Positions 21,401 to 43,202 of a stretch of DNA of 43,794 nt are shown piece after piece; the stretch's first letter is position 1; each line of letters begins with the position of its first letter. The stretch is from a virus, in the IMG/VR virus record IMGVR_UViG_3300020438_000077, positions 1-43,794 of that record; one strand, given 5' to 3'. A program made the position numbers and the translations under genes. The notes beneath the pieces are model-generated. The model did no database searches and was not told the origin of the DNA. It worked only from the letters and a program-made list of their open reading frames with translations.

Positions 21401-22953
21401 GTAGCAGAAGCAGCAGTTCTAAGGAAACCAGTTGCACCACTCTTTGTACCTCTAACATATGCTGGTGTTGATAAAGTAATACCTTCATTTATTGTCAAAT
21501 TAACATATGTTTCAACATCATATAAGGAAATATCCCACTGATTTACATTAGGATTAGCAGCATCATAAGAACCAGATTCTAAATTGTAATCATATACTCT
21601 TGCTACTCCAATTTCTGTTCCCTGTGCTGTCGTTTGGTTTGCAGCAGTTCTTTGACTCTGTAAACTTAGAACATATGTATTACCCACTCCTACTATAGGA
21701 GCACCAAAACTTCTATTTACTTTAAGAGCAGCACCTGTATTATAAAGTATACCTTCGTCTTTAATTATTTTTGTAGTTCTTGGTTTAGCAGCATCTAACA
21801 ATGTTGGTTGATTAGATCCAACTTCATAACCTTTAACGTATGCTTTTCCACTAGAAACATTATATACCATCAACTCATCTGAAGGAGTATCTCCCATTGG
21901 AGTTATTTGTCCTTCTTGAAAAAGACCTCTATTGCCAATATTGTCATTTAAAGAATTTCTTAAAGTAACATCAAAAGGTTTTACATAATAATCTCCAGAT
22001 TCTTCATAAGTTCTTCTAGCTAAAACATCTTCTAAATCATCATAAAATACACTACCGTTTGGTCCTACACCAAAACCTTGTCTAGGAGTAGATTTTAATA
22101 TTCCCTCATTAATAGTTCCTAACTCAATAAAATTAGTGTCATTAGTATCATCTAAATTTTTCTTAAAAAGACTTACTGATATTTTTAATCTATCTGCACC
22201 AGGAGCACCATAATTATTATATCCTTGAGAATTGTCGTTTAAACTTTCATCTAAATCAGATGTAATTATCTCTTCATTTACAAAAAATCCAATTCTATAA
22301 TTAGGATTTGTTGAATACTGATCTAATATAAGTGTCTCTGCCTGACATTGAACAAATTGACCCCTAATAAAATATACACCTTCCTGAACAGAGAATGATG
22401 ATCCAGATATAGCAGCATCAGCAGCGATAGTAATACCAAAAGGACTACCTGCAGATATAGCACTATTACCCAACAAACCAGAGGTAATAGTGGTATCTGA
22501 AGATAATTGTTCACCATCAGCAAAAGTGACAGTAGAATTATTTGCAGTACTTGAAGAAAGATAATTTACATATAATGTTAAATTGCCATTTTCAGAATCT
22601 TGATCTAATAAAACTTTATTTACAACTGCAGTTACTCCTGAACTTTGCCCAGTAATTTTTGTACCTATTAACTGGTCAACATAAGCAGCTAAAGGGACTC
22701 CTTGAAAAGTATTATTTAATTGAATACCACGATAATTATTATTATATGAAGTATTGCCAGGTATAACCTTTGCACCATCCTTAAAGAAATGTTGACCAAA
22801 TTTCTCAATTTGATTCTGCAGTATAGACTGTAGAGTTGTTAACTCTCTTGCCTGTACAGGATATCCAGGTTTAAATAAAACCCGATAGAAGTCATCAGCA
22901 GGGTTATAATCGTCAAAATATGGCGATACATCTAGATTGGTTTGCTGTGGCAT
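15487..22953 (-). CDS. Very large virion structural protein (DUF4815-type N-terminus)
   Basis: The 2488 residues occupy the slot after gp8 where T4 has gp9-gp12. The N-terminus, with SPYFDDYNPADDFYRVLFKP and PVQARELTTLQSILQNQIEK, is the start I associate with DUF4815 structural proteins of marine T4-like phages. About 1345-1415 is unusually Arg-rich (RTVQRGRWIVREQRFQRRNV), followed by SIIPFMRSRNIEFTAKSLKP. About 1680-1835 has DPLAQTFTVDDETGVFATKA and YLEPKQEYAMVLMSNSAKYE, a conserved phage baseplate/fibre-attachment domain. GE..GESSGA modules occur near 885 and 925, Gly-rich GxGY repeats near 1880-1950, and an IENEVLEY...RGSDKF module near 2125. It is probably a peripheral baseplate protein that carries fibres. 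The exact T4 equivalent is unclear. Confidence 0.85.
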   Translation of the reverse strand: MPQQTNLDVSPYFDDYNPADDFYRVLFKPGYPVQARELTTLQSILQNQIEKFGQHFFKDGAKVIPGNTSYNNNYRGIQLNNTFQGVPLAAYVDQLIGTKITGQSSGVTAVVNKVLLDQDSENGNLTLYVNYLSSSTANNSTVTFADGEQLSSDTTITSGLLGNSAISAGSPFGITIAADAAISGSSFSVQEGVYFIRGQFVQCQAETLILDQYSTNPNYRIGFFVNEEIITSDLDESLNDNSQGYNNYGAPGADRLKISVSLFKKNLDDTNDTNFIELGTINEGILKSTPRQGFGVGPNGSVFYDDLEDVLARRTYEESGDYYVKPFDVTLRNSLNDNIGNRGLFQEGQITPMGDTPSDELMVYNVSSGKAYVKGYEVGSNQPTLLDAAKPRTTKIIKDEGILYNTGAALKVNRSFGAPIVGVGNTYVLSLQSQRTAANQTTAQGTEIGVARVYDYNLESGSYDAANPNVNQWDISLYDVETYVNLTINEGITLSTPAYVRGTKSGATGFLRTAASATNSLTLYGVNGEFIVEEPLLFPGKNEDGTSVSRVVTAVDVKSINDVKSIFGKVGGGNTFAADVMQSVGSFIGIGSITAASSGFSTITSTNDRFPGTLVSVNNLLKFSNTAQSDDPTFGQVTAVGTNTVTIKAVADVNGVVNGNLPTSSLQVTDLEVLTTELDASSDDTLFTVLPKPNIATVDNTKGTITIRKKYTVDIENGQLKASTIPTTGTNETFLPFDEERYILIRSDGTTESLTANQFVFTGGTQIQIYGLGSNDVDATLLTSITKLKPTSKEKIKNRVNTIVVDKSTIGGSGTNVSGIGSTTLNDGLEYGNFAWGTRVQDEVISLNTPDIINIHGIYESSTTEDASAPTAVLASITSASTTTEEFVIGEEIVGESSGAIAIVAEKVTASQISFIYQNEKVFVEGETLVAKESLVQGVVTTLESTSYNISGEFTFNNGQEGSFYNYGFLTRNVSVDAPTHKLKVYFMSAGFDSTDTGDVITVESYKNFNYSTEIQSVNGIRNSDIIDIRPRVSNYTVAAGTRSPLEFDGRTFDGAGSSAGAMLQTDGSILTTYSYYQGRIDRIFANKEGIFQVVYGTPADNPNTPLPIDDAIELATITLPPYLYNVSEASIKFLDYKRYQMQDIHNLATRVKNLEYYTALTLLESNTSNMFVSDADGLNRFKSGFFVDNFASFLAQELSEGVKNSIDPENGELRPSHYTTSVDLMTGPVEGVVGGVDKNFETPEGINIRKDNGIITLDYSEIEWVKQIFGTRTESVTPYVVAYWTADVSLNPESDTWIDQTRLDARIINREGNFAETVAELSNTRGFDPQNGFGQTVWGSWQTFWTGNTRTRDEVRRPASNPTRTVQRGRWIVREQRFQRRNVFIEDARQTRTGTRMEVREQFDRESQGDRTVSRSIIPFMRSRNIEFTAKSLKPLTRVYPFFDAQNVSEYCVPKLIEMNMLEGTFQVGETVRGVSQSSQSGDSGPSNLITFRVAQVNHREGEYNLPTKTYPDNPYTLQPLSSTYSSTSTILNVDTFSLSNMDQPEYTGYIQNQIILVGQSSGAQARVSNIRLLSDITSTLQGSFFIPDTTRNPSAPRFETGNKLFRLTSDEDNGLKASTRGDDEFRSEGFHDVIQETIISTRNASVDMATVTGEQGTTRRTGETAWVNDGWQRTANLRFLGDPLAQTFTVDDETGVFATKADIYFRSKDDMDIPINFSIRTVVNGTPTKTIVPETTIILDPSDVNISSDGSFATTFQFKSPVYLEPKQEYAMVLMSNSAKYEVYISRVGENDLISDSFVGQQPFGGSLFKSQNASTWEPSQWEDLKFTLYRADFLSDGTVEFYNPELSTGNGQVSLLEGNSLSFTSREARVGIGTTIADGGLKVGNLVIQAGTNATGNLAGFAGTAIGLNIINSGIGYTPSSGNLTFNGVNLVTVTGAGRGATANITVNDGVINGAVISGAGGGGYQVGDVVGFNTLGVASVGRNARLSIVAIGSTNELILDQIQGNFTVGAAQTLSYVNNSGITSEMNLSFGGDVQVASTNVVNDGLHIKVNHKNHGMYSNKNKVTISGAISDIKPTTLSAAFNVDSINSISVTDASQFLQFENVGVGTTNAGYLKIENEVLEYQAVAGNVISITGSRGSDKFNYPVGTPVYKYELDSVSLHRINKTHNILSTPDIDFESYNIKIDMANDGVNRTVAGYPLLYAGKTKSIGGFDVRATQNIPFEVITPMIDNITLAKTSLSAEVRTTTGVSIDGEEDQWLDNGFEPVSINETNYLETPRLISSKVNADEYLTQVKGKKSMNLRLILSTGDSRVSPVIDSSRVSTILTSNNVNNPITDYANDSRVNSLTEDPNACQYLSKEMMLENSASSIKIMLDAHVTENADIRAFYAINNIEGKTPIFVPFPGYSNINRNGEIIDKRNNDGKSDKKVIKDNDYSFGPNVTYKEYTFSVDQLPSFKTYRIKLVMTSTSQVHVPRVKDLRVLALA

Positions 22954-24547: not shown

Positions 24548-27500
24548 TTATACTGTATAATTTTTATATTTCAAAGGAGCAGTCCTTTCAACCAGTGTAG
24601 AAGTATGAATACCAGTAGGTGTGGTAGTTCCTCCAACACCTATACCGTTCAGAGTTTGTGCGGTATAAGCATTTTCAAGTTGTCTACCATCAAGTTTAAT
24701 TCTACCCCAACTAAATGAACCGAAGTAATTGGAAGTTGAAATTCCAGAACCGTATGTAATAGGACTAGAGACATTCACAAATACTCTAGTGACATTTGTA
24801 GCAATGCCAACTATGTTCTTAGGAATAGTTTCTACACTCTTCACTTCATAAACATTATCAACATAAGATTTTCCTATTCCAACAGTATTAGAACCTGCAC
24901 TATCCTGAGAAGTTATCGAAGTTACTGCAGCACCAACACTTGAATCATAAACAACAAAACGATCATGACCTGTCAAAGTACTCAATGTTTGAGCAGTTCC
25001 AACTAAAGCAGGTTCTCTCAAATAAGAATCATATGGAATAAACAAATCAAATATAAGTTGGTCTTGAGAAGCAACCGTAGTAATACCAAATCCAACAATC
25101 ACTCCTGAATCACCTGCGTAATTAGAAACCGCATTCTTTTCATCAACCGCTATAGTTGGAGTAATAAGAACTAAAGGTGGATTAGTACTTGTATATCCAA
25201 CTCCAGGATTCGTTACTGCGATTCCAGTTACAACTCCATTGGTCAATGTTGCTTCTGCCATTGCCATTGTATTAGTAGTAATGCCTATGGTAGACGCAAT
25301 ACTCACTGTAGGGGTAGCAGAATACCCTACACCACCTGTTGAGAGTGTGATGGATGAAATGGTACCCAATCCAGAAACAACTGCTGTAGCAGCAGCAGAA
25401 ATAACAGTATCTTGAGAGAAGAATCTTATGCTATTTTGGAAAGTAAGTTCATTATCATTCTCATTTTCTGCATCAAATAATGGTCTTAAATTATCAACCC
25501 AAACAGATGTTGAACCAATTCCAACAGATTTAATAAGATATCCATAAGGATAAATGCTTGGTTCATATAATGTTCTATCTTTTCCAATTTCCTTCCCGTC
25601 TACAATCAAATCTTCAGTTTGCTTACACCATACTACAGGTCTCATGAGAGTTTCATTTGTAGTATTGCCAGGTCCAAAGTATGGATTGGTTGTAATTAAA
25701 TCAGTAGCATCAATGCTTGTGACTATTCTAGGATCTTCCTGTAAAGAAGATTCTTGCCCAACAGATGCATCATAACCAACAGTTACCTTATCACCAGTCT
25801 TAATAGTCTCTAAAATATCTCTAAACACAACATCTAAACCACCAGTTCCTTTATAGAATAAAATCTTAGACTTATCACCCATCTTAGGTGCTTCAGTAAA
25901 GGTAATTACACTACCACCACTAAATGTGTATCCTTGACCAGGAACTTGTAGAATATCATTTACAAATACTAGGAGAGCATCCTCAACATTAATGTTAGAA
26001 CCAGCAGAAGACCTAATAGAAACTAAAGTTCCACCTTTTCTAATTCTGAATGCTTGAGTACTACCATCAAACTTATTATCAAAGTTATCAAGCATATCAA
26101 GAGTTCCAATAGACCATCCTGTAAATTCATCAGTAAATTCTTCTGTAACAGTAAGTTTAAACTCTTGGAAACCAGAAGTAGTTGGAATTCCTGTTGCTCC
26201 TCCAATAGGAACTGTTAGAATATCACCAGTTCCATAACCATATCCAGTATTTCTAACCTCAAAGTCAATTACACTAGAACCTTGACCAACTTGAACATCT
26301 ACTCTTGCAGCAGTTCCAAATCCACTCTGACCATTAGCATAAACTAATGGCATATCAGCATAGGAAAGAGGGAAATCAAATACTACATCTAAAGGTTTCT
26401 GAACCTTACCAGAACGAGCATAGAAGTGTGTTCTGCTCGATACTCCAGTATTAACACTAAATGTATTGTTATCAATAATACTTAAAACAGTTGTTCTACC
26501 AGCAGCAGCGTCAGTAGGTCTTGGAGCAACAATCACTCCCTGTACTTTTCCTCCATTCTTATAGAATGTGTCAACAGTAGATATACCAACGTTAACTACG
26601 AATTCAGTTGCACTATTAACCTGAGTAACTTTTGTACCAGCATAATATGGGTCAGCTTTTCTTGGATATTTGTGTGTAGTTGCATTACTATCTTTAGAAC
26701 ATGTGAATGCTAAAGATTCAGTACCAAGTTTAATACTGGTTCCAGTTTTCAAAGTATGAGCACCAATGGTTAATACCATAACTCCTGAAGCAGCATCATA
26801 AGTTGCACCAGAAACATTATGACTGACTAGTGGAGATGTACCAACATTAATTGTAAATGTATTTGCTGTTGTAGCAGCAACTGATACCATAGTATTATGA
26901 ATAGGATCAGTAATACGTGGATATGAATGTAATGATGAATAGTCATCCATTGCACATCTAAATTCTAATGCATTCGTTGATACTCCAACAGTATCTGTAG
27001 TAAACAAACCATGATTAGCAGCAGTAAAGGTTACTAATCCAGCAGCAGCATTATAAGCAGCATCGGTTGGTGTTAATGTTTTTGTTGTATTGGCAATACT
27101 AATTGAATTTGGAGTAGAACTTGCAAATATATGTCTATAATCACCACCACTCTTCACTGCACCAGTAGTTGCTGAAACGAAGGCATGTGTATACTGGTCA
27201 TTCTTTCCAGAAACTCCAACATCAAGTGTAATACTATTAGATGTTGTTGCAGCAATTGCTACTGAATTCTTATAAGCATAATCTTCACCTCTTGGATAGA
27301 AATGATCAGTAGCACCATTATCTAAACCACAAGTAAATGCAATCCCAGTAAATATAACATCTTTTCCTGTTACATATCCATGATTACCTGAAGTTGTTAC
27401 TGTTGCAATTCCAGTTGCTGCACTATAAGCAAATCCAGCAATAGACTTAGGACCAGAGTAAGTACAAGTGAATGCAATTCCAGAAAGACTAACTTCATCA

Positions 27501-30500
27501 CCTTGAATTAAACCATGTGGTTTAAATGTCTTAATTTCAGTTATGCCTGTTATTGAACTGTATCCTACATTTGTTATATTTCTTGGTTTATAGAATACTT
27601 GAGTATTAGTAATTGCAACTCCTGTTACATGTCCATCAGATACTGAAGCAGTACCAATTGGAGTCATACTAATATCAGTAAGACTTTCTTGCTGTATTGA
27701 AACATTTACAGTTTGAATACCAGACCTATAACCAGAACCAGTATTACCAATACTAATAGAAGTAATAGTTCCAGATACGCCTACTATAGCGGTTCCTCCA
27801 GCAGCAACTAATGATTGATACCCTAAACCTTCCTCTGAACCAACTGAGACGATTACACCGCCCAATGGACGCTTAGAAGTATTAGCATCTCTGTCTAAAG
27901 TAGATACATCAACTGGGTCTCCAGTAAATGTGATAGTCGTAATACCTGATGCTTCAGAAAGTTCGTAATTATAAGCAGCACCTGGTCCTTGGAATACATC
28001 ATTAACTAAAATTATTCCATTTTCTGTAGCAATTCCCGATACATTCTGTCCTTTTGATTTTAAGGTAAAGTCTTTATTAATACCATTAAATCCAGAAGAA
28101 ATATCGTCAAAAATATAATTCTTATAATAAGTTTCGTTCGTTGTATTAGGTACTCCACGACGTAAGAATGTTCTGCCTTGGAAAGTAGAACTAGTTGAGA
28201 TTCCTACCCAATCTCTAGAATCAGGTGGATTTAATGGAGAACTTTCTGGAATATTTCCAAAAGGAGGTTCAGCAAAGTTAAGTGTATTCTCAACAATATT
28301 GTAATTACCATTTACTCTAGTAACTATAGTTCCTGTACCATATCCAGCAAGTTTAGTTCCTAACCATCCTCTTCTTACTCTTACAACATTAGTACTACCA
28401 ATACCAACACCTTCAATCTTCATTATTTCATCTTCAACCTGTACCAAATCACTTCCAAAGAATGAGGTAATACCACTAAATGGGATTAAATCATCAGTAG
28501 TAAATACTTGATCAGCAAGAACAGTAGTCTGTGCAGTAGATACAATTGGAGATTGGAAAATATTATCTAAAGCAAGAAGAACTTTTGGATTTTGATTAGT
28601 AGAAGTAAATCTATGAGAAGTACCAATACCAACACTAGTAATATCAAGAACTTCAGGAACCACCTTAAGTGCATTTGCAGCAGTAGATGCTAGTTTAATC
28701 TTATCAGCATCAATTTTAACTGCATAGACATCTTGTGGTACTAAAGTAGTGGAGAATCCTAAATCAGGGAAACTAGTACTAGCAATCTCTAATGCTTGAG
28801 TAGAACCTATTCCAGCATGAGTATACTTAAGTTTTTCACCACTAACAAAGAAGTGATTAGGAACTCTAATAGTATTTGCATCAATACTGACAATAGAACT
28901 ATCATTACCTGTGAAACTTCTATCAAAAATATCATCATTATTATGAGTTAAGTTAAATGCTCTCTTAATATCTCTATCGGTACCAGTATAATCACCAAAG
29001 TATGCTGATACAGAACCTGCCTGATCAAGAGACATATTAGTCTTAGCATCATCCTGTATTCTCAATGCATTTGAATAGATATTGACTGATGCAGCAATAT
29101 TAGGTAATGGAGTAAATACAATTTCAACATTAGTAGTTGCACCTGCATTAACATTCAATCTAGACCCAATAGTACCTAATCCAACAACTGTTTCGACATT
29201 ACCATACTCAGTATCATAAGTATCGCCTGAAGCAGTTTCTTCAATATAATCATCAACAACAACAAATTCAGACATTTGATATCTATTATTTGTTGTATCA
29301 GTAACTTGAACTATGCAATATGCAGCATCATATGCCTGGTCATTTGCTCCGACTTGAGATGGGAAAGTAGCAATTACTGTAGGGGTTGGATTTGCATTAG
29401 AAGCAATTGAAGTAGTTTTTGCTTCTAATCTTGCATGTTTCAAATCAGCAGTTCCTATACCAGTTGCAGCTGCTGCCATAGCAACATTTACCGTATTAAC
29501 TACTGCAGTTGTTCCTATTCCTGCATTTGGATGGAAATCAACCTTTACATTACCACCATCAATATAAGCACTATAAGTTCCAAAACCAGAATTTGCCCAA
29601 GGAGTTAATGTTGTAGTTAATTGCCCAAATTCAAGTAACTCTACATCAGTTCCATCATGAATAATATTTAATTCTTCAAATTCAAATTCATTACTTTGAA
29701 GACCTGTGTCTGCTGTAATATTAACAAGTGATTTGATAGAACGATATGTAGTTGCTACACTTACAATAGTAGTTGGAGTACCAGATGCTACCTGTACACT
29801 TTGAGAATCAAGAGTTACAACTCCACCAAAACTTGTAGCACCAACAGATAAGAAGTTGTCATTTAAATTATATGAAAGAGCCATGACCCAATAGTCATTG
29901 ACTGCAGACTTTGTAGGATAGAATAATAACTGTCCATTATTACCAGCAATATTGAAATCAAAAGAACCTTGGTCATATTGTGTTTCCACTCTACCATACT
30001 GGTTCATATATCCTATAGAACTATCATGAACAATATCAACAACCATTAATTGTCTTTGTCCTAAGAATCTTTTATCTTTTACATAAGTAATATATTTTTG
30101 AGAACGGACATCTGATAGTGGGAATGAAGCAGCAACACTAAATGCGGTTGCTCTAGGATGACTATTGAATTGTGGACTAATATCATCAATTGAAAGTACT
30201 CTATTACCTATAGATTCAAAATAGTCAGTAAGAACTCTACTATTAAAGACTAATTCATCAGATGCTATTTTTAAATCTAATGATAATGAATTTTCTTTTA
30301 CTAAATCAAAGTCATAATCACAATTTAAATCTCCATAACCAATTAAATCATTAACTACTTCAAATGAAGTTAAGTTAGTAGATAACCCAACTGTCATGCT
30401 ATTTTCTGCATTAGTCTCTAATTGATAATCAGAGAATTTTTTAAATCCTAAAGTATGGTTGACACTACTTACTAAATCATCCCAAGTATCAAAATCAACT

Positions 30501-33500
30501 TTAGATCTTAAAGAATATGAGAAGTTCTGATAGTAGAAACTATCCTGAATCTTTTGCATATTATAATTAAGAACACCAGAGTCAGTTTCATTTCCTTTCT
30601 CTACTTTAGAGAAGGCATTCAGTTTAAAGTGAGCATCATATGAAGTTATTGATGATGCAATACCCTGAGTATTAGAAGAAGAACCTTTAATTACTTCATC
30701 TAATACAAAATCATCTTGTGATGATATTTTTAAAATTCCATCATTTGTATCCCAAGATTCAACAAATCCAGTTGCAGAATTAGATTTAACTTCTTCTCCC
30801 ACAAAGAATTCATTAGTTGTTAATGTAGTTTCAAATACAGGGAAGTATTTTTCAGGAACAATTCTTCCAGCAGAATTAGCAGGTACAAATTCTCCAATAG
30901 TCTTACCAGCACCAACTAAGTTACCCATATTATAAGTAACTGTTGCTCCAATTCCACCTATATTTGGATGAGTTTGACTAATTGTAAATAACGTATAATC
31001 ATAATTTACAGAGTTATAACCCAATCCAGTTGAACCAACTCCAACACTTACATTCTCTACGATTACTTTATCATTTACATTAAATGGGAAGGTATCAGCA
31101 GTACTAAATCCAACATTCAATTCTACTGTTACATCTTTTGTATTTGGATTATATGAAATAGTATTAATTCCTACACCATTTGAATTTTCAGTTGGAAGAA
31201 TAGTTGGAGGCAACATAGACATGCCTGTAGTATTCCTAAGAATTTCAATCTTAGAATTACCTAAAGTATATTTTAAATCAACGTCAGGTACTTCTTTTTT
31301 AGTTTCTCCATCTAAAACAATTAATTTTGGTGCAATACCATATCCTTTTCCAACTGATGTTACTCCAACAGACTCTAAAGATGCAAGATCTCTAATAGTA
31401 ACAAATTGTGGTAAATTAACACTAGGGAATAATGTAGGATCGGAAGGATAATCAAATCCAATATCTTTAATTTTAGTTCTTGAAATTACTCCAATAGAAT
31501 CACTAGATGCTTCAACTAAAGCATTTTTACCACTCTTAGTAGTAATACTAGAAATACCAGGAAGAGAATAATAATTTTGCCCTTTATTAATAATTTCAAA
31601 CTTATTAATAGTACCAAAAGCACTCGTAGATTCGGTATTATATTTTAAATCTGAAGAAGATGATGTATAAGAGGATTGTTCAGGTGCATTTGGTATAGAA
31701 TATTTAAATGAACTTGTAGAACCAATAGTAATATTATATTGACCATTATAAAGACTATTGTTGACTTGTAATTCACTATTAGAAATTACTGGGTCAATAA
31801 TAATATTTTTAAATAAATCAGGTAAATTATTCTCAGAAATAGGTTGTAATTTATAAAATAGAATTTCAGGTATATTACCATCTACTTTTAAAGTAACTTT
31901 ACCATCTACACCAACAATACCTGTTCTCTGAACTTCAAAATTTCTAGTTGTTTTACTTGTATTCCATAATTCAGTAAAGTCTTTATCAGAATAAAGATTA
32001 AATTTAAATGCAGGATAAGATGCACCTTGATTTGTATAACCAAGAGAAGAATCAGATAAATCAAAAATAGCAGTAGAATCTTTATATAATTTTAATGGTG
32101 GATTGATAGAACTAAATGTTGCATCCTGAGCACTTGTAATATTAATAATTGCAGGTTTTAATTGTGTTGATTTATAATAAGTATTAGATAATTTAAATGT
32201 ATTATTATCAACCTTTACTATAAAGTAAATTGCATCATTAGTAAGACCACCTGATGATACACTTGCGGTATGAATAACCTTATCACCAGTTTCATATCCA
32301 TGATTTACTAATGTAAAGGAATTTTCTATTGTGCTTATATTAGCAGCAGTAACTGTTGTAGGATTAATTACAAGTCGTCTATTATACTTGTTATATTTTA
32401 CTGTAAAGGTTTTAGAAGTAATAGGATTAACAGAAACATTAACTATATCGTTATTTGTCAATCCATGTGTCTGTGCAGAAGATACAGTAACAATATGCTT
32501 GGATATTTCACCAGTTATTGGTTCATGAGTAGTTTTAAAACTGTGATATGTTCCTGTACCGATTCCAGTAAAGAATAGTGTTGTAGAATTTGTAAATCCA
32601 TTATCAATTCCTTTAAATGTACCAGTTGAACCAAGAGCAACTCTTACAGTTGCTAAACCAACTAAATCATTGCTAATTCTTGCAACATAAACAGTAGAAG
32701 GTAAAGTTGCTATTGATACGTTAGAATCATAAGCAATAGAAATACCAAGACCAGTATTAGTGGAGTATGTAAGTTTATCTCCAGTTGCTAATCCATGATT
32801 TGGAATATAAAGTGATTTTGTAGGAATAAAGATTTCAGTTATACCTGCACCTGGGTTATTAAGACCAATAACAGTTCCTATACCAACTCCAGTAAGAGTT
32901 CCTAATCCCACTGTATGAGTAGGGTTAAAATAAACTTCTTTATTTACTTTAAAGTCATAAGTTGTATTAAATCCCGCATTAACAGTAAATCTTCTGGGTT
33001 GTTCATAAAGAACTGTTGTTACTGTATGTGATACTCCAACAGTACCATCGATTTCTCTCAATACTCTAATTCTAGAATATAAAGGTTCTATGTTTAAGAC
33101 TTTTACTTTTTCTGCTCCAATTCCAATAATATCATTACTTCTAATTCTACTATTAGATAAATTACCAGCAACATTTAAGAAAGTAACTATTCCTGTTACT
33201 GATACTGATTTAACACCTATAGTAGTATCACCAACACCTGTCAATGACCAGGTATTAGTACTAACACCCACATTATAAACACCACCAATCTTAGATGAAG
33301 TTGTAGATAATCCACTAATTTTAACTAATTCAGTATTATAGAAATTATGAGGGTTGGGGGATACTATTTCATATTCTCCGTCAGCATCAGATGGATATAT
33401 TTCTACTCCAGTAATAACACTACTTGCAACACTTACATTACTTACAGTTTTTCCATCTAGATGTGATACCTTAGCAGCAGCACCTAAACCCAGAGTATTA

Positions 33501-36500
33501 GTATTATCAAATACTGCTTTATCACCAACTCTATAGAATTGTCCACCAGTCTGAATTCCAATACCATCAACAGTACCTGGAAATACTCCATTAATATCTA
33601 CAGTTTGTAATAAATTATTTGGAATGGAAAGATACTTATAATTAAGTTCTTTATCAATTAAATTATAAGGTTGAGTATTCCTAGACCACCCATCAAAATC
33701 AAATACATCTTGTGTTGATAAAATATCATTATTAAAATCGTTTGGAGTAGAATTATAATTATCTCCTATTAAATATGGGAATTTTGGTTCTTTATATCCA
33801 TCAAATGGTCCTGATGATGCAGCTTCAGAATTATCAATAGTTGCAAAATAAGCATAAGTACCATTAGGATATTCTGGAGTAACACAGAACCTTCCATTAT
33901 TTTTATCTAATACTGCATTATCATTAACTTCCTTATGAGTAAAATCTTCAATGAAAAATCCTTCTGGATAAACAGCAGTAGATGGTCTACCTTCCTTTAT
34001 ATCTAAAGAATATCCAGACCGCATTTGAGCAATTGTTCCACCTTCATTTGTAAGATAACCATATGGTCCATATATTGGATTGCCGTCATATGCCCATCCA
34101 ATAACAGGAGAATGGAATTCTGAAGCAACCTCAGTATTGTTTACTCTTCTTAAATCAGGTCTTGCATATAAACTTCTACCAGACTGGTCTACTGAATATA
34201 TTACTTCTCTAAGTTTTCTTGGTGCATACAAATGAGTATACTGCAGACCCATATTACCTTTAGTAATAAATCCATCATCTGCTGTAAAATTAGGATCTCT
34301 ATTAAATAGGTTTATTCTCCAAGTTTGTATATTAGTTTTTAATTTAACACCATTTCCAGAATTTAAAACAGTGATATTAGTAGATGCTTGTAAATATCCT
34401 ATTCCTCCAGAAATAATTTTAACATCAATTAATTTACCATTTTCAATAACTGGTGTTAATATTGCACCTATACCAACTCCATCTATTACTAAATCTGGAA
34501 GAGAAATATAATTACTGCCAGAATTTAAAATAATAACATCAATAACTTTTCCATTACTAACAATTGGTTGTAATTGTGCATCTCTTCCTGAAATAAATGC
34601 AACAAATGGTTCTCTATTAAAATTAATAACTTCTGCAGAACCATATCCAGAACCATTATTGGATAAATGTATAGAGGTAATTTCTCCTCTAAAAATTGGT
34701 TGAATTTTTGCTTTAAATGTTTCCGTTCCTACTGGAGTTATTCCAACATTTCCAACTAATGAAACATTAATATCTGGATAATTAAAAACATGAGTACCAA
34801 CACCAGTAGATTTAATATCGATATATTGTTTTGTATTATATAAATCCTGTGTTGTAGATAATTTAAAATTATCTTTATCAACTTTAGTTACATAATATTC
34901 TGTTCCACTTACAAGACCTTGAATCTGAGTTCCTTCTGTAGTGTACTTAACAACTTGTCCAGAATCATAATCATGATTATCAATATTAATATTATCAAGA
35001 ACTGTGCTAACTCCTACTGGTTGAGTAGTTCTTTTTTTAGTTTGATAATTACTTCCACTATTAAGGACATTAATAGCATCAATAACTGACTTTGTATTGA
35101 CCGACCTTAGTATTTGTTTACCAATACCATATTCGGTTAAAGATATAGCATTAGAACCAGTAATAGCAGCAGCATATGTAGAATGAATTCCTACATTATA
35201 TGCATCTATAACATTTACAAAATAACTTGACCCATCTATAAGTCCACCAATTGCCTTTTGTCCGTCTGAATTATAAATTACTTCTTCAGCATTTCTAAAT
35301 TTATGATAAACTTCCCCAAAACCAATAGTATTATTTGTAATATTAATTGAAGATGTAGAAGCAGCACCAGCAAAAGGAACACCTGAATTAAATGAAACCT
35401 TATGAATGATAGATTTCATGTTTACAGAAGCAACTGCTCCTTCTCCACCACCACCAGTAATATTAACAATAGGTGTTTCTGTATAATCAAAACCAGGGTC
35501 TATAACCTGAATTTGCTGTAGAGAACCTGAAATAGCAGGATATCCTGTTGCTCCTGTTCCAACAGTATCATTAATATTTAAAAGAGGAGGATTTATAATA
35601 TCATAATTGTTTCCATTACTAATAACATCAATAGAATTAATTTTTCCGTAAGTAAGTAAATCAGTTGACTTGTAATTTAATACTTCAACACCATTTATTA
35701 AAATACCCGTTCTTCCTGGTGTAGTTGGATATACAACTCCATCATCAGTTGGAAGTTTTATCTCTTTTACAAGTTCTTGTGATTCTAATGTACTATTTCT
35801 AAGTGCATATGGTTCGATTATATTATCAGTTACAACAGTAGTATTATCTAAGAATACAAAAACAGACTTATTAAGGTCCGACCTACTCATTGCTAGTTTA
35901 ATTGTTGTAGAATCTATCCTCTTAACAAAATACAATCCTTCATTAGGAGGTGTTCTATCAGATACATCAACACCATTATTATTACCTGTTATTATAAATT
36001 CTAAATCTGTAGTAAATAATGATGAGTTAACTCTTGTACCTTCCTTTGTCTGATAGAATGAATCGTAATAAGTGTAAGGAACTTTTTGAGGAACATAATA
36101 AATTGCATCACCAGTATAGAATCCATGCTCCTGGTCAGAAATCTTAAAGGTATCTCCTCGGAATGTACCTGAAAAAACTGCAGACCTAGTAGAAACATTT
36201 AATGGTTGATCATTATATGAAGGAATAGATGGGGATGTTACTATTAAATCAGTTCCTTTCTTATAAAGGTTTTGAATATTAGTAGAATATCTTTCTAGAT
36301 TGCTAAAAGTATTTGACCTTCCTTTAGATAAATTACGTTGAATAGTATAATTTTGAGTTACTATAAGATTTCCTTGTCCTTTAATAATAAATGAATTTGC
36401 TGCACTTAAAGAGATGACAGTAGTTAATCTATCAATTCCATCAGTTCCTTTAATAGTAGCACTATCACCTATTTTAAAAATTGTATCTACACTAGTAGTT

Positions 36501-37915
36501 ACTTGATAAGTTAAATCAATACTATCAATTAATACTACTTTAGTAACATTATAACCTGGAGATACATTATAAAACCAATTTTTACCTTTAGAAGTATTTA
36601 CATTTGTACCTAAAGTTTTTATTCTAGCAGTATTACCTTTAGAATAACCTTTAGTCTTATTAGAATATTCTAGTTTATCTAAAACATTATTAACTCTTAC
36701 TTTAATAGTTTTAGTAGAATCTGAGAATGAAGTTCCAAATGCATAAGTATTAATTCCAATATTTGCAGCATCTTCTATAATACCTGTAATATTAGTACAC
36801 CCAAAGAATTGAGTTGTAGATTTTGATGTATAAGTAACAATTCCTGTTGTAGCATCATTATAAATTACTGACAATTCACCTGAAGATGTAAAATCGATAG
36901 TTGAGTCAACATCAAGTGTAGTAGTACCAGCACTTACTTGTCCAATCAATTTAGTTTTAGGGTGTATAGAGAATGCACCATACATTGCACCATCAACCCT
37001 GGCATCTCTATTATATCCACCATCAACACTAAGTTTATATGCTGTAGTTGCAGTTCCTGTAAAAACTTTCTCTACACTAGTAATAGGAGCATATGCTTTT
37101 TCAATATCAGCACCATATTGATTTTGGAATAGTGTTGATAATTCTAAATCTACTGGATCTCCTTCAATTGCTTCAACAACTAAATCATTGGTTACTTTAT
37201 ACTGTGCATTAGATGGAGTAAATAAAAATTCTCTCGGTCTAATGATTTTTACTTCTTCATCATATAAAGCTTTAAATAAAATTTCAAAAGATTGGTCAGT
37301 ACCCTTACTTAGATAAAAGTCCTTTGCTTGCTTAATAAAAACATTCTGATTTAGGTCAGAATGCAAACTCCTATCTTCAAGTCCAGGTAATAGTTGATAT
37401 TTGGTTTTTAGAAGGAATTGTTTGAGAAAGAGGATGCTTAGATTAGTGACCTGAGACCCCTTTGTATGCGTCTCAGAGGTCGTTGAATTGAATACTAGTA
37501 CATCTGGATTAGTATCTGATTTATAAGAAGATATTCCACAAAATCCCCTAACACAACCAGTGAAAGAAATATCTGTTTTTCCAGTATATGTAATAATCTC
37601 ATCATCAATTTTTAGCAGACCATAAGTATCTGGAAATCCTTTAGTTCCTTGAGGGTATGTTGCAACATCAATTAAAATCGTTTCATCTATTTCTGTAATC
37701 GCACTACCTAATGCAACAAAGTCAACTAGGTTTGTAAGTTCATCTATTTTAGAATATTGGTCTATATTCTGAATTAAATCAGCAGGAGCACCCTGATATT
37801 CATTTCCAATATAATATGTCTTTAAAAAGTCAGAAACCAACGGAAATTCATCCCTGACATATTCAGGAAGTTGGTTTTGTACTATATTATTAAACTGAAC
37901 TCTTTTTATTGACAT
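24548..37915 (-). CDS. 7: Giant gp7-like baseplate wedge protein (4455 aa)
   Basis: This is one uninterrupted 13.4-kb gene between gp6 and gp8, exactly the gp7 slot. The first 280 residues are the likely wedge domain. LPEYVRDEFPLVSDFLKTYY and, at about 195-231, DFYLSKGTDQSFEILFKALY followed by DEEVKI match T4 gp7 DFYSTKGIEASYKFLFKVLY and NEEVEI as I recall them. T4 gp7 has 1032 residues, with this motif in its C-terminal part, so here the core is N-terminal and some 4000 residues follow. These contain IDDEIITY...RG modules, many GSGYxxxP repeats, a degenerate YHYH domain (about 1210-1340: GWAYDGNPIYGPYGYL, GRFCVTPEYPNGTYAYF), GE..G.S modules near 2370-2420 and four FTC...YPR repeats near 3465-3790. 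Its 1-nt gap to gp6 implies co-transcription. The tail is probably surface decoration or adhesin. Confidence 0.85.
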   Translation of the reverse strand: MSIKRVQFNNIVQNQLPEYVRDEFPLVSDFLKTYYIGNEYQGAPADLIQNIDQYSKIDELTNLVDFVALGSAITEIDETILIDVATYPQGTKGFPDTYGLLKIDDEIITYTGKTDISFTGCVRGFCGISSYKSDTNPDVLVFNSTTSETHTKGSQVTNLSILFLKQFLLKTKYQLLPGLEDRSLHSDLNQNVFIKQAKDFYLSKGTDQSFEILFKALYDEEVKIIRPREFLFTPSNAQYKVTNDLVVEAIEGDPVDLELSTLFQNQYGADIEKAYAPITSVEKVFTGTATTAYKLSVDGGYNRDARVDGAMYGAFSIHPKTKLIGQVSAGTTTLDVDSTIDFTSSGELSVIYNDATTGIVTYTSKSTTQFFGCTNITGIIEDAANIGINTYAFGTSFSDSTKTIKVRVNNVLDKLEYSNKTKGYSKGNTARIKTLGTNVNTSKGKNWFYNVSPGYNVTKVVLIDSIDLTYQVTTSVDTIFKIGDSATIKGTDGIDRLTTVISLSAANSFIIKGQGNLIVTQNYTIQRNLSKGRSNTFSNLERYSTNIQNLYKKGTDLIVTSPSIPSYNDQPLNVSTRSAVFSGTFRGDTFKISDQEHGFYTGDAIYYVPQKVPYTYYDSFYQTKEGTRVNSSLFTTDLEFIITGNNNGVDVSDRTPPNEGLYFVKRIDSTTIKLAMSRSDLNKSVFVFLDNTTVVTDNIIEPYALRNSTLESQELVKEIKLPTDDGVVYPTTPGRTGILINGVEVLNYKSTDLLTYGKINSIDVISNGNNYDIINPPLLNINDTVGTGATGYPAISGSLQQIQVIDPGFDYTETPIVNITGGGGEGAVASVNMKSIIHKVSFNSGVPFAGAASTSSINITNNTIGFGEVYHKFRNAEEVIYNSDGQKAIGGLIDGSSYFVNVIDAYNVGIHSTYAAAITGSNAISLTEYGIGKQILRSVNTKSVIDAINVLNSGSNYQTKKRTTQPVGVSTVLDNINIDNHDYDSGQVVKYTTEGTQIQGLVSGTEYYVTKVDKDNFKLSTTQDLYNTKQYIDIKSTGVGTHVFNYPDINVSLVGNVGITPVGTETFKAKIQPIFRGEITSIHLSNNGSGYGSAEVINFNREPFVAFISGRDAQLQPIVSNGKVIDVIILNSGSNYISLPDLVIDGVGIGAILTPVIENGKLIDVKIISGGIGYLQASTNITVLNSGNGVKLKTNIQTWRINLFNRDPNFTADDGFITKGNMGLQYTHLYAPRKLREVIYSVDQSGRSLYARPDLRRVNNTEVASEFHSPVIGWAYDGNPIYGPYGYLTNEGGTIAQMRSGYSLDIKEGRPSTAVYPEGFFIEDFTHKEVNDNAVLDKNNGRFCVTPEYPNGTYAYFATIDNSEAASSGPFDGYKEPKFPYLIGDNYNSTPNDFNNDILSTQDVFDFDGWSRNTQPYNLIDKELNYKYLSIPNNLLQTVDINGVFPGTVDGIGIQTGGQFYRVGDKAVFDNTNTLGLGAAAKVSHLDGKTVSNVSVASSVITGVEIYPSDADGEYEIVSPNPHNFYNTELVKISGLSTTSSKIGGVYNVGVSTNTWSLTGVGDTTIGVKSVSVTGIVTFLNVAGNLSNSRIRSNDIIGIGAEKVKVLNIEPLYSRIRVLREIDGTVGVSHTVTTVLYEQPRRFTVNAGFNTTYDFKVNKEVYFNPTHTVGLGTLTGVGIGTVIGLNNPGAGITEIFIPTKSLYIPNHGLATGDKLTYSTNTGLGISIAYDSNVSIATLPSTVYVARISNDLVGLATVRVALGSTGTFKGIDNGFTNSTTLFFTGIGTGTYHSFKTTHEPITGEISKHIVTVSSAQTHGLTNNDIVNVSVNPITSKTFTVKYNKYNRRLVINPTTVTAANISTIENSFTLVNHGYETGDKVIHTASVSSGGLTNDAIYFIVKVDNNTFKLSNTYYKSTQLKPAIINITSAQDATFSSINPPLKLYKDSTAIFDLSDSSLGYTNQGASYPAFKFNLYSDKDFTELWNTSKTTRNFEVQRTGIVGVDGKVTLKVDGNIPEILFYKLQPISENNLPDLFKNIIIDPVISNSELQVNNSLYNGQYNITIGSTSSFKYSIPNAPEQSSYTSSSSDLKYNTESTSAFGTINKFEIINKGQNYYSLPGISSITTKSGKNALVEASSDSIGVISRTKIKDIGFDYPSDPTLFPSVNLPQFVTIRDLASLESVGVTSVGKGYGIAPKLIVLDGETKKEVPDVDLKYTLGNSKIEILRNTTGMSMLPPTILPTENSNGVGINTISYNPNTKDVTVELNVGFSTADTFPFNVNDKVIVENVSVGVGSTGLGYNSVNYDYTLFTISQTHPNIGGIGATVTYNMGNLVGAGKTIGEFVPANSAGRIVPEKYFPVFETTLTTNEFFVGEEVKSNSATGFVESWDTNDGILKISSQDDFVLDEVIKGSSSNTQGIASSITSYDAHFKLNAFSKVEKGNETDSGVLNYNMQKIQDSFYYQNFSYSLRSKVDFDTWDDLVSSVNHTLGFKKFSDYQLETNAENSMTVGLSTNLTSFEVVNDLIGYGDLNCDYDFDLVKENSLSLDLKIASDELVFNSRVLTDYFESIGNRVLSIDDISPQFNSHPRATAFSVAASFPLSDVRSQKYITYVKDKRFLGQRQLMVVDIVHDSSIGYMNQYGRVETQYDQGSFDFNIAGNNGQLLFYPTKSAVNDYWVMALSYNLNDNFLSVGATSFGGVVTLDSQSVQVASGTPTTIVSVATTYRSIKSLVNITADTGLQSNEFEFEELNIIHDGTDVELLEFGQLTTTLTPWANSGFGTYSAYIDGGNVKVDFHPNAGIGTTAVVNTVNVAMAAAATGIGTADLKHARLEAKTTSIASNANPTPTVIATFPSQVGANDQAYDAAYCIVQVTDTTNNRYQMSEFVVVDDYIEETASGDTYDTEYGNVETVVGLGTIGSRLNVNAGATTNVEIVFTPLPNIAASVNIYSNALRIQDDAKTNMSLDQAGSVSAYFGDYTGTDRDIKRAFNLTHNNDDIFDRSFTGNDSSIVSIDANTIRVPNHFFVSGEKLKYTHAGIGSTQALEIASTSFPDLGFSTTLVPQDVYAVKIDADKIKLASTAANALKVVPEVLDITSVGIGTSHRFTSTNQNPKVLLALDNIFQSPIVSTAQTTVLADQVFTTDDLIPFSGITSFFGSDLVQVEDEIMKIEGVGIGSTNVVRVRRGWLGTKLAGYGTGTIVTRVNGNYNIVENTLNFAEPPFGNIPESSPLNPPDSRDWVGISTSSTFQGRTFLRRGVPNTTNETYYKNYIFDDISSGFNGINKDFTLKSKGQNVSGIATENGIILVNDVFQGPGAAYNYELSEASGITTITFTGDPVDVSTLDRDANTSKRPLGGVIVSVGSEEGLGYQSLVAAGGTAIVGVSGTITSISIGNTGSGYRSGIQTVNVSIQQESLTDISMTPIGTASVSDGHVTGVAITNTQVFYKPRNITNVGYSSITGITEIKTFKPHGLIQGDEVSLSGIAFTCTYSGPKSIAGFAYSAATGIATVTTSGNHGYVTGKDVIFTGIAFTCGLDNGATDHFYPRGEDYAYKNSVAIAATTSNSITLDVGVSGKNDQYTHAFVSATTGAVKSGGDYRHIFASSTPNSISIANTTKTLTPTDAAYNAAAGLVTFTAANHGLFTTDTVGVSTNALEFRCAMDDYSSLHSYPRITDPIHNTMVSVAATTANTFTINVGTSPLVSHNVSGATYDAASGVMVLTIGAHTLKTGTSIKLGTESLAFTCSKDSNATTHKYPRKADPYYAGTKVTQVNSATEFVVNVGISTVDTFYKNGGKVQGVIVAPRPTDAAAGRTTVLSIIDNNTFSVNTGVSSRTHFYARSGKVQKPLDVVFDFPLSYADMPLVYANGQSGFGTAARVDVQVGQGSSVIDFEVRNTGYGYGTGDILTVPIGGATGIPTTSGFQEFKLTVTEEFTDEFTGWSIGTLDMLDNFDNKFDGSTQAFRIRKGGTLVSIRSSAGSNINVEDALLVFVNDILQVPGQGYTFSGGSVITFTEAPKMGDKSKILFYKGTGGLDVVFRDILETIKTGDKVTVGYDASVGQESSLQEDPRIVTSIDATDLITTNPYFGPGNTTNETLMRPVVWCKQTEDLIVDGKEIGKDRTLYEPSIYPYGYLIKSVGIGSTSVWVDNLRPLFDAENENDNELTFQNSIRFFSQDTVISAAATAVVSGLGTISSITLSTGGVGYSATPTVSIASTIGITTNTMAMAEATLTNGVVTGIAVTNPGVGYTSTNPPLVLITPTIAVDEKNAVSNYAGDSGVIVGFGITTVASQDQLIFDLFIPYDSYLREPALVGTAQTLSTLTGHDRFVVYDSSVGAAVTSITSQDSAGSNTVGIGKSYVDNVYEVKSVETIPKNIVGIATNVTRVFVNVSSPITYGSGISTSNYFGSFSWGRIKLDGRQLENAYTAQTLNGIGVGGTTTPTGIHTSTLVERTAPLKYKNYTV
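26540..27520 (-). repeat. Tandem protein-level repeats in the giant gene
   Basis: Four related modules of about 80-100 residues lie in the C-terminal quarter of the gp7-like protein. Each has a strand pattern of the type 'GIATVTTSGNHGY.tG..V.f', then F(T/R)C followed by D...H.YPR..D, and a closing 'T....V.VG.S'. Copies contain IAFTCTYSG (partial), IAFTCGLDNGATDHFYPRGE, LEFRCAMDDYSSLHSYPR and LAFTCSKDSNATTHKYPRKA. A related copy is in the fibre protein near 7900-8160. Confidence 0.75.
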
Positions 37916-40759: not shown

Positions 40760-40927
40760 TCACAAAGATTGAAGTTTTTGTTCAACAGATTCGTCAGTTG
40801 CACGAATCCTATAACTTACTTTATCTCTCTTAGAGAGTTCTGTCAATACTTCTGATGCCAAATACCATAAATCTTCATCATTCTTATTGGGTAGATGATG
40901 CTCTACCCATTCCTTGATAGGATTCAT
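40760..40927 (-). CDS. Small protein of 55 residues, unrecognised
   Basis: The protein reads MNPIKEWVEHHLPNKNDEDL, WYLASEVLTELSKRDKVSYR, IRATDESVEQKLQSL. It is soluble, mostly helical in appearance, with an acidic centre. Its ATG overlaps the stop of the glycosyltransferase-like gene as TAATG, so it is likely translated by coupling. No family is recognised. Confidence 0.68.
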   Translation of the reverse strand: MNPIKEWVEHHLPNKNDEDLWYLASEVLTELSKRDKVSYRIRATDESVEQKLQSL

Positions 40928-41733
40928 TATATAATACGAGATTTTTCGTGCCCTACACGAATACGAGGGTCACATAAGATATCAAATCCTGCTTCGATTG
41001 CATCTAAACAGAAACTTACATCCTCTCCACACATATCTTGTACTGCACCTGATTCAAAGACTTGCATCTTTGGAGCAAACCAAGGATACTTCATTGCCTC
41101 TGCTTCAAATACGCCCTTCTTAATCATCAACCAACCGAAACCTGCGTAGTCTACTGTGAAAGGTTTCTTTCTTTTAGAGATACTTTCGACGGTTTCGTGA
41201 TTCATAACTCCACCATTCTTGCGGAAATCATCTTCCTCTAACCAGTGTGCGACAGATGTAGTCTTGCCATCCTCTGTTGCATACCATCCAGAAACAATAT
41301 CCTTAGTCTTCTCTTCGTCTACTGTACCGTCTTCATTCACTGCGTCCTCTGGAACCATCATATCACACAACTGCCAGAACTTGTTAGTGTCAAAGACAAT
41401 ATCCGAGTCAATCCATAACTGGTAGTCGTATGCTAGTTTGCCGTCCCAAGGTATCTGATCTGGACCTCTGAGTACATTTGCTCCAAGACACTTACATCTT
41501 GCAAAGTTAACCATTGAAGAATAGTCCTGTGATATCTGGATAGACATACCATTCTGAACCATATCAAAGCATAACTGCACGAAGTTCTTCAGAAAGATGT
41601 ATGATACTCCACGACCTGGAAGACAGAATACTATCTGCTTTCCTTTCATTCTTCCTTTAATCGCATCAATGTCCCACTCCTCTTGCTTCTTGGGTTTGGG
41701 TGCATTGGCTTTAACTGTAAATCCTTTTGCCAT
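40927..41733 (-). CDS. Glycosyltransferase-like protein (GT-A fold)
   Basis: The 268 residues look like a nucleotide-sugar transferase of the GT-A type. GKQIVFCLPGRGVSYIFLKN near 30-50 is the first strand and nucleotide-binding loop. LWIDSDIVFDTNKFWQL near 107-123 supplies the DxD metal motif (DSD). TVDYAGFGWLMIKKGVF and the terminal CGEDVSFCLDAIEAGFDI, then CDPRIRVGH, match the acceptor-side ED..FC....G.....D....GH pattern. It could modify phage or host glycans, or DNA. The substrate cannot be inferred. A perfect sigma-70-type promoter lies just upstream and overlaps the previous stop, so it is likely expressed before the late genes. It overlaps the 55-residue gene by 1 nt. Confidence 0.75.
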   Translation of the reverse strand: MAKGFTVKANAPKPKKQEEWDIDAIKGRMKGKQIVFCLPGRGVSYIFLKNFVQLCFDMVQNGMSIQISQDYSSMVNFARCKCLGANVLRGPDQIPWDGKLAYDYQLWIDSDIVFDTNKFWQLCDMMVPEDAVNEDGTVDEEKTKDIVSGWYATEDGKTTSVAHWLEEDDFRKNGGVMNHETVESISKRKKPFTVDYAGFGWLMIKKGVFEAEAMKYPWFAPKMQVFESGAVQDMCGEDVSFCLDAIEAGFDILCDPRIRVGHEKSRII

Positions 41734-42510: not shown

Positions 42511-42684
42511 TTACCAACTGACAGGATTACTCATGTCTTCGATAACACTTTCAACGGACTCATTGTCTTGCATATCTAATACTTTTCTCCAGTCAATTTG
42601 ATGTGGATTAAAGTCATCTAGTGCGTCAACTTCCAGTGTTATTCTATACTTACTCTTTGTTGCTTGATTGTAAAGAACTGACAT
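42511..42684 (-). CDS. Small protein (57 aa), unrecognised
   Basis: The protein reads MSVLYNQATKSKYRITLEVD, ALDDFNPHQIDWRKVLDMQD, NESVESVIEDMSNPVSW. The order is one or two strands then a helix, with an acidic C-terminus. The YRIT.EVD.LDDF.P..IDW.K pattern is plausible for a conserved phage gene, but no function is known to me. The ribosome site is weak. A late-box match at 42755-42762 lies 71 nt upstream. Confidence 0.6.
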   Translation of the reverse strand: MSVLYNQATKSKYRITLEVDALDDFNPHQIDWRKVLDMQDNESVESVIEDMSNPVSW

Positions 42685-42754
42685 AGGATTAGTGCCGTGT
42701 GAGTGTTACTGAGTTAGTCTAACATTAATAAGGGTTATAGTCAATTAGTGTGTA

Positions 42755-42762
42755 TATTTATA
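42755..42762 (-). promoter_or_regulatory. Late-box match (TATAAATA) upstream of the 57-residue gene
   Basis: The minus strand has TATAAATA, the full T4 late consensus, 71 nt upstream of the ATG at 42684. It overlaps the first copy of a 10-bp direct repeat. Confidence 0.5.
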
Positions 42763-42784
42763 ACGAAACCCTGATATAACGAAA
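42759..42784 (+). repeat. 10-bp direct repeat TATAACGAAA, 16-nt period
   Basis: TATAACGAAA occurs at 42759-42768 and 42775-42784. The flanks hold AACCCTGA (42767-42774) and TTAGGGTT (42791-42798), an 8-bp inverted repeat with one wobble. AGGGTT recurs at 42731, 42793 and 42814. The meaning is unknown; the repeats lie in the gene-free signal region next to the DnaA-box-like cluster. Confidence 0.6.
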
Positions 42785-42817: not shown

Positions 42818-42847
42818 TTGACAATTAAAGCGAGTTCGTGTTATACT
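42818..42847 (+). promoter_or_regulatory. Plus-strand sigma-70-type promoter with no gene ahead
   Basis: TTGACA (42818-42823), an 18-nt spacer and TATACT (42842-42847) form a strong plus-strand promoter in a window where all genes are on the minus strand. The transcript would start near 42854 and run through the TTTTCCACA cluster and antisense to the genes after 43050. I see no credible plus-strand gene downstream. Confidence 0.7.
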
Positions 42848-42857
42848 GTGCTCGCTT
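42828..42857. repeat. 7-bp inverted repeat around the plus-strand -10 box
   Basis: AAGCGAG (42828-42834) and CTCGCTT (42851-42857) are perfect arms separated by 16 nt, with the -10 box between them. The geometry suits a regulator operator. Confidence 0.55.
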
Positions 42858-42878: not shown

Positions 42879-43042
42879 TTTTCCACACATTCTTAACACC
42901 TTTTCCACAGATTAACCCTCTATTTATAACACATTGTGGAAAAGGTTTAGAGAACGCTTATACATTAATTTAACCATTAATTGTGGAAAAGTAACACATA
43001 ATAGCATAGTTTTCCACAGAAAGTAATAGAAACTGTGGAAAA
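42879..43042. promoter_or_regulatory. Cluster of six perfect DnaA-box-like 9-mers (TTTTCCACA)
   Basis: TTTTCCACA is on the plus strand at 42879-42887, 42901-42909 and 43010-43018, and on the minus strand at 42935-42943, 42982-42990 and 43034-43042. All six are exact. The 9-mer is the DnaA-box form I know from cyanobacterial origins (E. coli TTATCCACA differs by one base). Some boxes pair into longer inverted repeats: CCTTTTCCACA at 42899-42909 with 42935-42945 (11 bp), and AGTTTTCCACAG at 43008-43019 with 43033-43044 (12 bp, 13-nt loop). AT-rich DNA lies between the boxes, and no gene is present from 42685 to 43049. This may be an origin, DnaA titration site or regulator array. Confidence 0.8.
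42921..42928 (-). promoter_or_regulatory. Late-box match (TATAAATA) inside the DnaA-box-like cluster
   Basis: The minus strand has TATAAATA between the second and third TTTTCCACA boxes, inside the loop of their 11-bp inverted repeat. It lies 237 nt upstream of the nearest start in its direction (42684). Confidence 0.4.
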
Positions 43043-43049
43043 CTCCATG

Positions 43050-43202
43050 TTAGTAATTGTTTATACTACGGTAAGGTCGATAACACTTTGCATACTCAGA
43101 TTGTGTCTTCTGGTTATCAATTAAAGTGCTTAATCCTTGGGTTTGGTTTCTATCTATTAGTGCTTGTTGTGCATAATAGGATTGTAATTCATCGGTGTTC
43201 AT
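43050..43202 (-). CDS. Small protein (50 aa), unrecognised
   Basis: The protein reads MNTDELQSYYAQQALIDRNQ, TQGLSTLIDNQKTQSEYAKC and YRPYRSINNY. It is Gln/Tyr-rich, polar and predicted helical. It begins 2 nt after the stop of the 52-residue membrane protein, so it is the last gene of a three-gene chain. A 12-bp hairpin made of two TTTTCCACA boxes lies 6 nt beyond its stop. A possible promoter (TGGACA, 17 nt, TATAAT) lies upstream at 43320-43348. Confidence 0.62.
   Translation of the reverse strand: MNTDELQSYYAQQALIDRNQTQGLSTLIDNQKTQSEYAKCYRPYRSINNY

Follow-up and report, generated by a model that had tools for sequence, protein, structure and literature searches.

Few viruses of the ocean are as abundant as the T4-like cyanophages. 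The locus described here raises the question of how their replication starts in a specific form: might these phages begin copying their DNA with the help of the DnaA protein of the host? T4 itself is not known to use host DnaA for starting replication.

The window, i.e. the whole stretch of DNA that was analyzed, is an entire IMG/VR contig of 43,794 bp that represents a fragment of a T4-like cyanophage. Its closest named relatives are myoviruses of Prochlorococcus and Synechococcus, such as P-SSM2, Bellamy and S-SSM7, to which it shows a nucleotide identity of just 73-82%, over short stretches only. Two very long ORFs of 4455 and 2488 aa (24548-37915 and 15487-22953) belong to a baseplate/structural module. 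A 365-bp gap separates the 57-aa gene from the 50-aa ORF (Table 1), and the likely genes on either side are small and both encoded on the minus strand. It is in this gap that the 9-mer TTTTCCACA occurs as six exact copies within 164 bp (42879-43042), three on each strand. All six copies named in the original prediction were located as exact matches, and the rest of the 43.8-kb window contains no further exact copy. The expectation of about one occurrence or less per window was borne out by dinucleotide shuffles, which gave a mean of 0.77 and a largest value of 3, and never 6. At this shuffle rate the Poisson probability of six boxes in a given 164 bp is ~8e-19, or ~4e-14 over all positions. 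One-mismatch forms are not in excess across the window (15, including the six exact copies, vs 20 expected). Several host-consensus 9-mers thus lie above chance in a short non-coding stretch, as befits a DnaA-box cluster. Two pairs of boxes form inverted repeats as had been noted earlier, namely 42901/42935, with the arms ACCTTTTCCACA/TGTGGAAAAGGT, and 43010/43034, with the arms AGTTTTCCACAG/CTGTGGAAAACT; read by eye, the arms are of 12 bp in both pairs rather than of 11 and 12 bp.

Table 1. Positions of the elements discussed in the text. Coordinates are those of the window, except in the last row, where they are those of the related loci named.
Feature	Position	Strand	Remarks
DnaA box 1, TTTTCCACA	42879..42887	+	exact match
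DnaA box 2, TTTTCCACA	42901..42909	+	exact match; 12-bp inverted arms with box 3
DnaA box 3, TTTTCCACA	42935..42943	-	one of three invariant box positions in the dereplicated alignment
DnaA box 4, TTTTCCACA	42982..42990	-	position shared with just the close relatives L250 and L290
DnaA box 5, TTTTCCACA	43010..43018	+	forms the best-conserved inverted pair with box 6 (15-nt spacer)
DnaA box 6, TTTTCCACA	43034..43042	-	partner of box 5 in the inverted pair
AT-rich tract CTTATACATTAATTTAACCATTAAT, candidate unwinding element	42944..42981	.	flanked by boxes 3 and 4; corresponds to the AATAAATAGCAAATTAAATAT/TTAAAAATGTATTAAAAAATATA tract in relatives
P2, sigma-70-like promoter, TTGACA-N18-TATACT	42818..42847	+	TG before the -10 (extended -10); conserved in relatives
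P1, promoter region of the 57-aa gene, TTGACT-N17-TAGACT	42716..42764	-	T4-type late-promoter-like TTATAAATA at the upstream edge
Dyad AGCGAG...CTCGCT around the P2 -10	42830..42855	.	arms vary but still pair in several marine relatives
57-aa conserved gene, phrog_12516	42511..42684	-	function unknown; flank of the locus on the P1 side
50-aa ORF	43050..43202	-	opposite flank of the locus; without a family match
268-aa gene, phrog_1574	40927..41733	-	weakly glycosyltransferase-like; marker adjoining clusters in diverse cyanophages
Iteron-like direct repeats	L326:2227-2331; L289:1667-1779; L302:1250-1302; L142:2744-2793; L375:1449-1516 (S-CAM9)		

Conservation of the box array among cyanophages

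Searching with the protein of the nearest reasonably long gene (126 aa) recovered 17 IMG/VR loci, which constitute a set of close relatives. Exact boxes are present in 17 of these 17 records, with almost all copies in one cluster at the same place; in long relatives nearly every exact box falls inside it (e.g. 5/5 in 70.8 kb, 4/4 in 77.8 kb and 4/4 in 45.4 kb). Most close relatives share a recurrent layout: two inverted boxes separated by 15 nt, a third box ~75 bp further on and often a fourth 34 bp beyond that. The maximum seen is eight boxes (L088). A wider set that was not chosen by boxes was obtained by alignment of the 57-aa protein (phrog_12516), which yielded 80 loci. Boxes were counted in 71 loci with enough upstream DNA, mostly phrog_12516 loci together with the window, some close-relative loci and isolates; nearly all of these IMG/VR and isolate loci were reached via an adjacent gene. 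The 500-bp stretches upstream of the 57-aa gene, which add up to 35.4 kb, contain 218 exact boxes, and the other 326 kb just 5; this is a density ~400-fold over the remainder, a value that describes kin loci, with a few near-identical contigs among them, and is not a p-value. At least one box was found in 57 of the 71 loci and at least four in 40, while 14 have none.

The same upstream region is enriched in the variants TATTCCACA (31 copies), TTATCCACA (17), ATTTCCACA (17) and TTCTCCACA (10), which differ from the consensus solely at positions 1-3 and leave the CCACA core hardly changed. Words with an altered core (TTTTCCAGA, TTTTCCATA, TTTTCTACA and others) are absent or nearly so upstream, yet occur elsewhere. 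Such variation at positions 1-3 with retention of CCACA is the tolerance expected of DnaA boxes. In an alignment of 24 loci that are less than 85% identical, the 27 box columns are 100% conserved as against 73% in the 156 other columns; these loci were drawn from those with boxes, which makes the figure conditional on having them. Within this selection the boxes are conserved above their flanks, and the variants of the wider set are of the kind that DnaA tolerates.

Scanning IMG/VR for tandem box pairs, without regard to genes, returned at least 120 stretches. Among the matches listed, 59 had at least three boxes within 300 bp, and T4-like cyanophage genes were recognizable in 32 of these 59. 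In most of those 32 listed loci, ~0.7-2 kb lie between the cluster and the downstream phrog_1574, past which come gp25 and gp6; in some the distance is several kb. In several of the listed cluster loci gp25 shares just 38-45% identity with that of the window, which implies that the association of cluster and genes is old or has been repeatedly regained. The 9-mer is not equally dense elsewhere, and the cluster is not lacking in close relatives, two outcomes that would have spoken against the original prediction; many further T4-like cyanophages keep the cluster at this place. Tight clusters of 6-7 exact TTTTCCACA were also seen in three GC-richer contigs without cyanomyophage genes (L099, L105 and L063), in two of which (L105 and L063) they adjoin terminase-like ORFs.

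Since a nucleotide search of the locus against phage records gave no match, isolates were reached through the neighboring proteins. Five of them, S-PM2, Syn9, S-SM2, S-SCSM1 and the freshwater phage DSL-LC02, have 2-3 boxes each at the homologous place. In S-SM2 the phrog_12516 gene is preceded by TTCTCCACA and two exact boxes (58,050-58,093); S-SCSM1 has one exact box and one near match, and DSL-LC02 two exact boxes together with GTTTCCACA near TTAAAAATGTATTAAAAAATATG. Syn9 carries the inverted pair, its boxes again separated by 15 nt (52,565/52,589), and S-PM2 three boxes (19,231-19,264) adjoining TTATTAAAAATGTATTAAAAAATATA; in both, a P2-like sequence that is below the reach of our P2 sequence model can be seen by eye after the boxes. 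P-TIM68 has a box pair ~170 bp past P2 and 400 bp upstream of phrog_1574. No boxes were found in Bellamy, SynMITS9220M01, S-SRM01, S-SCSM2R and others, although these keep the promoter and the AT-rich tract, which indicates that not every lineage requires boxes at this locus. Neither a P2 match nor clustered boxes were detected in P-SSM2, ACG-2014f, S-CAM7, S-T4 and P-HM1. In the S-PM2 record (AJ630128, our L381), tRNA-Asn and tRNA-Leu are annotated at 19177-19333, where they overlie the DnaA-box/AT-rich locus. An explanation of the S-PM2 cluster as a tRNA overlap was rejected, as the conserved locus can be read directly in this segment; the annotation seems to be misplaced, the segment not appearing tRNA-like.

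Promoters, AT-rich tract and strand composition

The promoter P2 points into the boxes on the strand opposite to that of the flanking genes, the first box beginning ~25 bp past the likely start, and no evident gene lies downstream of it. Matches of this type are common by chance (11 vs 7 in shuffles), and hence the weight of P2 rests on its conservation. An alignment of 28 loci displays this conservation, 13 of the columns being invariant, among them the stretch TTAGATCAC just past the start. With the P2 sequence model, 13 of 24 isolate records (P-TIM68 being counted twice) gave a match, one per genome. With respect to the priming promoter beside an unwinding element that marks a T4-type origin, the promoter sequence here is conserved and single-copy, and its putative RNA might prime. 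The -10 element of P2 is surrounded by a dyad, whose arms in the window and in four relatives (L291, L310, L142 and L137) include GCGAG/CTCGC, GAGCGT/ACGCTC and GGGGGTTC/GAACTCCCC, and which may be an operator or a DNA hairpin. We set aside the covarying dyad as a defining part of the locus, because it was seen in the marine clade and is absent in S-SM2 and other loci. No hairpin terminator was found at the locus, and an Rfam search of it gave no match.

Of all 60-bp places, the worst of the AT-rich tract belongs to the bottom 2 in stability in the complete genome of S-SM2 and to the bottom 3 in that of Bellamy. An unstable AT-rich stretch is thus present by the boxes in S-SM2, and likewise in Bellamy, which has no boxes. 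In the window the tract is not unusually unstable by thermodynamic stability, the box region being about average and the whole window AT-rich, and the claim of an unwinding element from the window alone was therefore dropped. Neither GC nor AT skew switches at the locus in S-SM2 or Bellamy, so the skew inflection that had been suggested as a sign of an origin did not appear. Skew is a weak test in phages that replicate by recombination and have a single main coding strand, and a switch is missing from many origins as well; the result is uninformative, and we accordingly do not take it as excluding an origin.

Host DnaA as the likely binder and a candidate origin of replication

The 9-mer was originally proposed to be the cyanobacterial form of the DnaA box, and this identification holds: TTTTCCACA is the species-specific cyanobacterial box, whose binding has been studied in Cyanothece and assayed in Anabaena (PMC4674748), and it also occurs upstream of host dnaN. 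In the Prochlorococcus genomes tried, 0-3 exact copies are found among one-mismatch forms within ~200 bp upstream of dnaN, and tandem pairs are rare. The DNA-binding partner is unlikely to be encoded by the phages, since domain IV of DnaA (PF08299) was not detected in 18 phage records, some of them fragments; of the 4 host genomes searched, which include drafts, 3 have it. That TTTTCCACA is the host box, together with this absence of a phage domain IV, points to host DnaA, which likely binds the boxes. Taken with the positional conservation and the DnaA-like variants, these observations strongly support the prediction of a conserved DnaA-binding locus in T4-like cyanophages. Of the earlier proposal of a DnaA-binding hub or origin, the former part stands on these grounds; the latter is argued from anatomy, with skew giving no sign of it.

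This anatomy comprises an array of consensus and degenerate boxes at a fixed place upstream of phrog_12516, phrog_1574, gp25 and gp6, with a conserved inverted pair, P2 pointing into the boxes and the AT-rich tract beside or between them. The usual parts of a replication origin are DnaA boxes, a readily melting tract next to them and a promoter that reads in, and on this basis we propose an origin that recruits host DnaA for the first round of replication. The cluster belongs to a cis-acting locus that is conserved in T4-like cyanophages and whose role is probably that of such an origin. In the mechanism that we envisage, host DnaA would occupy the boxes early in infection and help to open the AT-rich tract; transcription from P2 would aid this opening, and its RNA may act as a primer. 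The phage replisome (gp41/gp59/gp61) would then start the first theta round, after which recombination-dependent replication would take over. We put at about even the chances of the fuller version, in which a dedicated single origin, dependent on host DnaA and coupled to a host-type promoter, serves the first theta round, the cellular initiator having been taken over in a departure from T4.

The origin activity that we infer has to be weighed against other uses of the same sites. In E. coli, DnaA also acts as a transcription factor. Host DnaA, or a host protein recognizing the same sites, might control P2 or the adjacent early genes, as a repressor or an activator, and have no part in initiation; the closeness of the first box to the P2 start and the situation of the locus beside two divergent promoters would agree with such control. 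We nonetheless hold it to be unlikely, for P2 reads against the flanking genes and is kept where the boxes are missing, and the conserved inverted pairs and the AT-rich tract, extreme in two genomes, exceed the needs of an operator. There is also little likelihood that the 9-mer is bound by a phage-encoded regulator instead of DnaA, or that the inverted pair is an RNA hairpin. Its near-constant spacing and the 12-bp arms in the window could be so understood, but box 3, which lies outside this pair, is equally conserved, the orientations are mixed, and the word is exactly the host DnaA box with a DnaA-like tolerance; the locus also lacks both an Rfam match and a terminator-like site.

Multiplying phage genomes could also titrate or inactivate host DnaA and thereby stop host replication. 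A precedent is the E. coli datA locus, which like the phage locus has a compact DnaA-box cluster away from oriC (PMC5835720). The climb in box copy number during infection, and the fact that the phage boxes are closer to consensus than those upstream of host dnaN, would suit such a sink. However, datA promotes hydrolysis of DnaA-ATP on the chromosome, and what the phage locus shares with it is the box cluster. Moreover, a sink has no need for a promoter or an AT-rich tract, nor for the conserved position, order and spacing of the boxes, which make sequestration less likely, and most genomes seen hold just 2-6 exact boxes in a single cluster. We consider it rather improbable.

In comparison with known systems, the candidate origin resembles the cyanobacterial oriC beside dnaN in the use of the same TTTTCCACA in mixed orientation, in the presence of one-mismatch forms and in an intergenic extent of ~200 bp. 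It differs from it in lying by baseplate genes of a lytic-type phage without dnaN or dnaA, in having more exact boxes than the Prochlorococcus loci seen and in the promoter directed into the array. The T4 origins (oriE, oriF/uvsY and oriG) are like it in the promoter adjoining an easily melted stretch and in their proximity to baseplate genes: oriE lies near gene 5 and oriF near genes 25/26, and both oriF and oriG consist of a promoter and an unwinding element. The T4 origins work through R-loops from middle promoters (or through RepE proteins) and contain no DnaA boxes, while the cyanophage locus combines a host-type sigma-70-like promoter with host DnaA boxes. Cyanophages have been reported to differ from T4 in middle transcription, and a single theta origin has been predicted for Syn9, of which a review states that it is not known whether others share it (PMC2984593). 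The present locus is found in the same phage group, and Syn9 has the inverted pair and a P2-like sequence at 52.5-52.7 kb. The text of a comparison of 26 T4-like genomes mentions neither DnaA nor a replication origin (PMC3037559), and we found no published description of a cyanophage DnaA-box locus in the literature searched, most subscription papers being outside it. Origins with DnaA boxes are known already; one as a conserved element of T4-like phages would be new.

As far as can be judged from sequence, the locus suggests that T4-like cyanophages of oceans and lakes start DNA copying with help from host DnaA. If so, a cellular initiator is able to start a T4-type replisome, and phage replication would be tied to the level of host DnaA and perhaps to the diel cell cycle of Prochlorococcus. 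The coordinates of the locus in the model isolates Syn9, S-PM2 and S-SM2 make the question accessible to laboratory tests.

Iteron-like repeats and palindromes in box-poor relatives

In certain boxless relatives, iteron-like direct repeats, mostly with a spacing of 33-35 bp, lie between the AT-rich tract and P2 (Table 1). Such repeats replace the boxes in 4 of 10 loci with 0-1 boxes (L326, L289, L302 and L142); a general swap of boxes for 34-bp iterons was not retained, as it is not significant over the 10 loci (p=0.2). Their presence in place of boxes would fit a change of initiator site, though this is statistically not firm. Plasmid and plasmid-prophage origins such as P1 oriR, pSC101 and RK2 have host DnaA boxes adjoining an AT-rich stretch, as at the phage locus, and the iteron-like repeats of the boxless relatives add to this likeness. 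They differ from it in that the phage locus belongs to T4-like phages and has no recognized Rep gene alongside. Upstream of P2, three loci with 0-1 box (L303, L326 and L142) display GATA...TATC palindromes, e.g. GATAATGATTCGTATCA, that resemble Fur-type sites.
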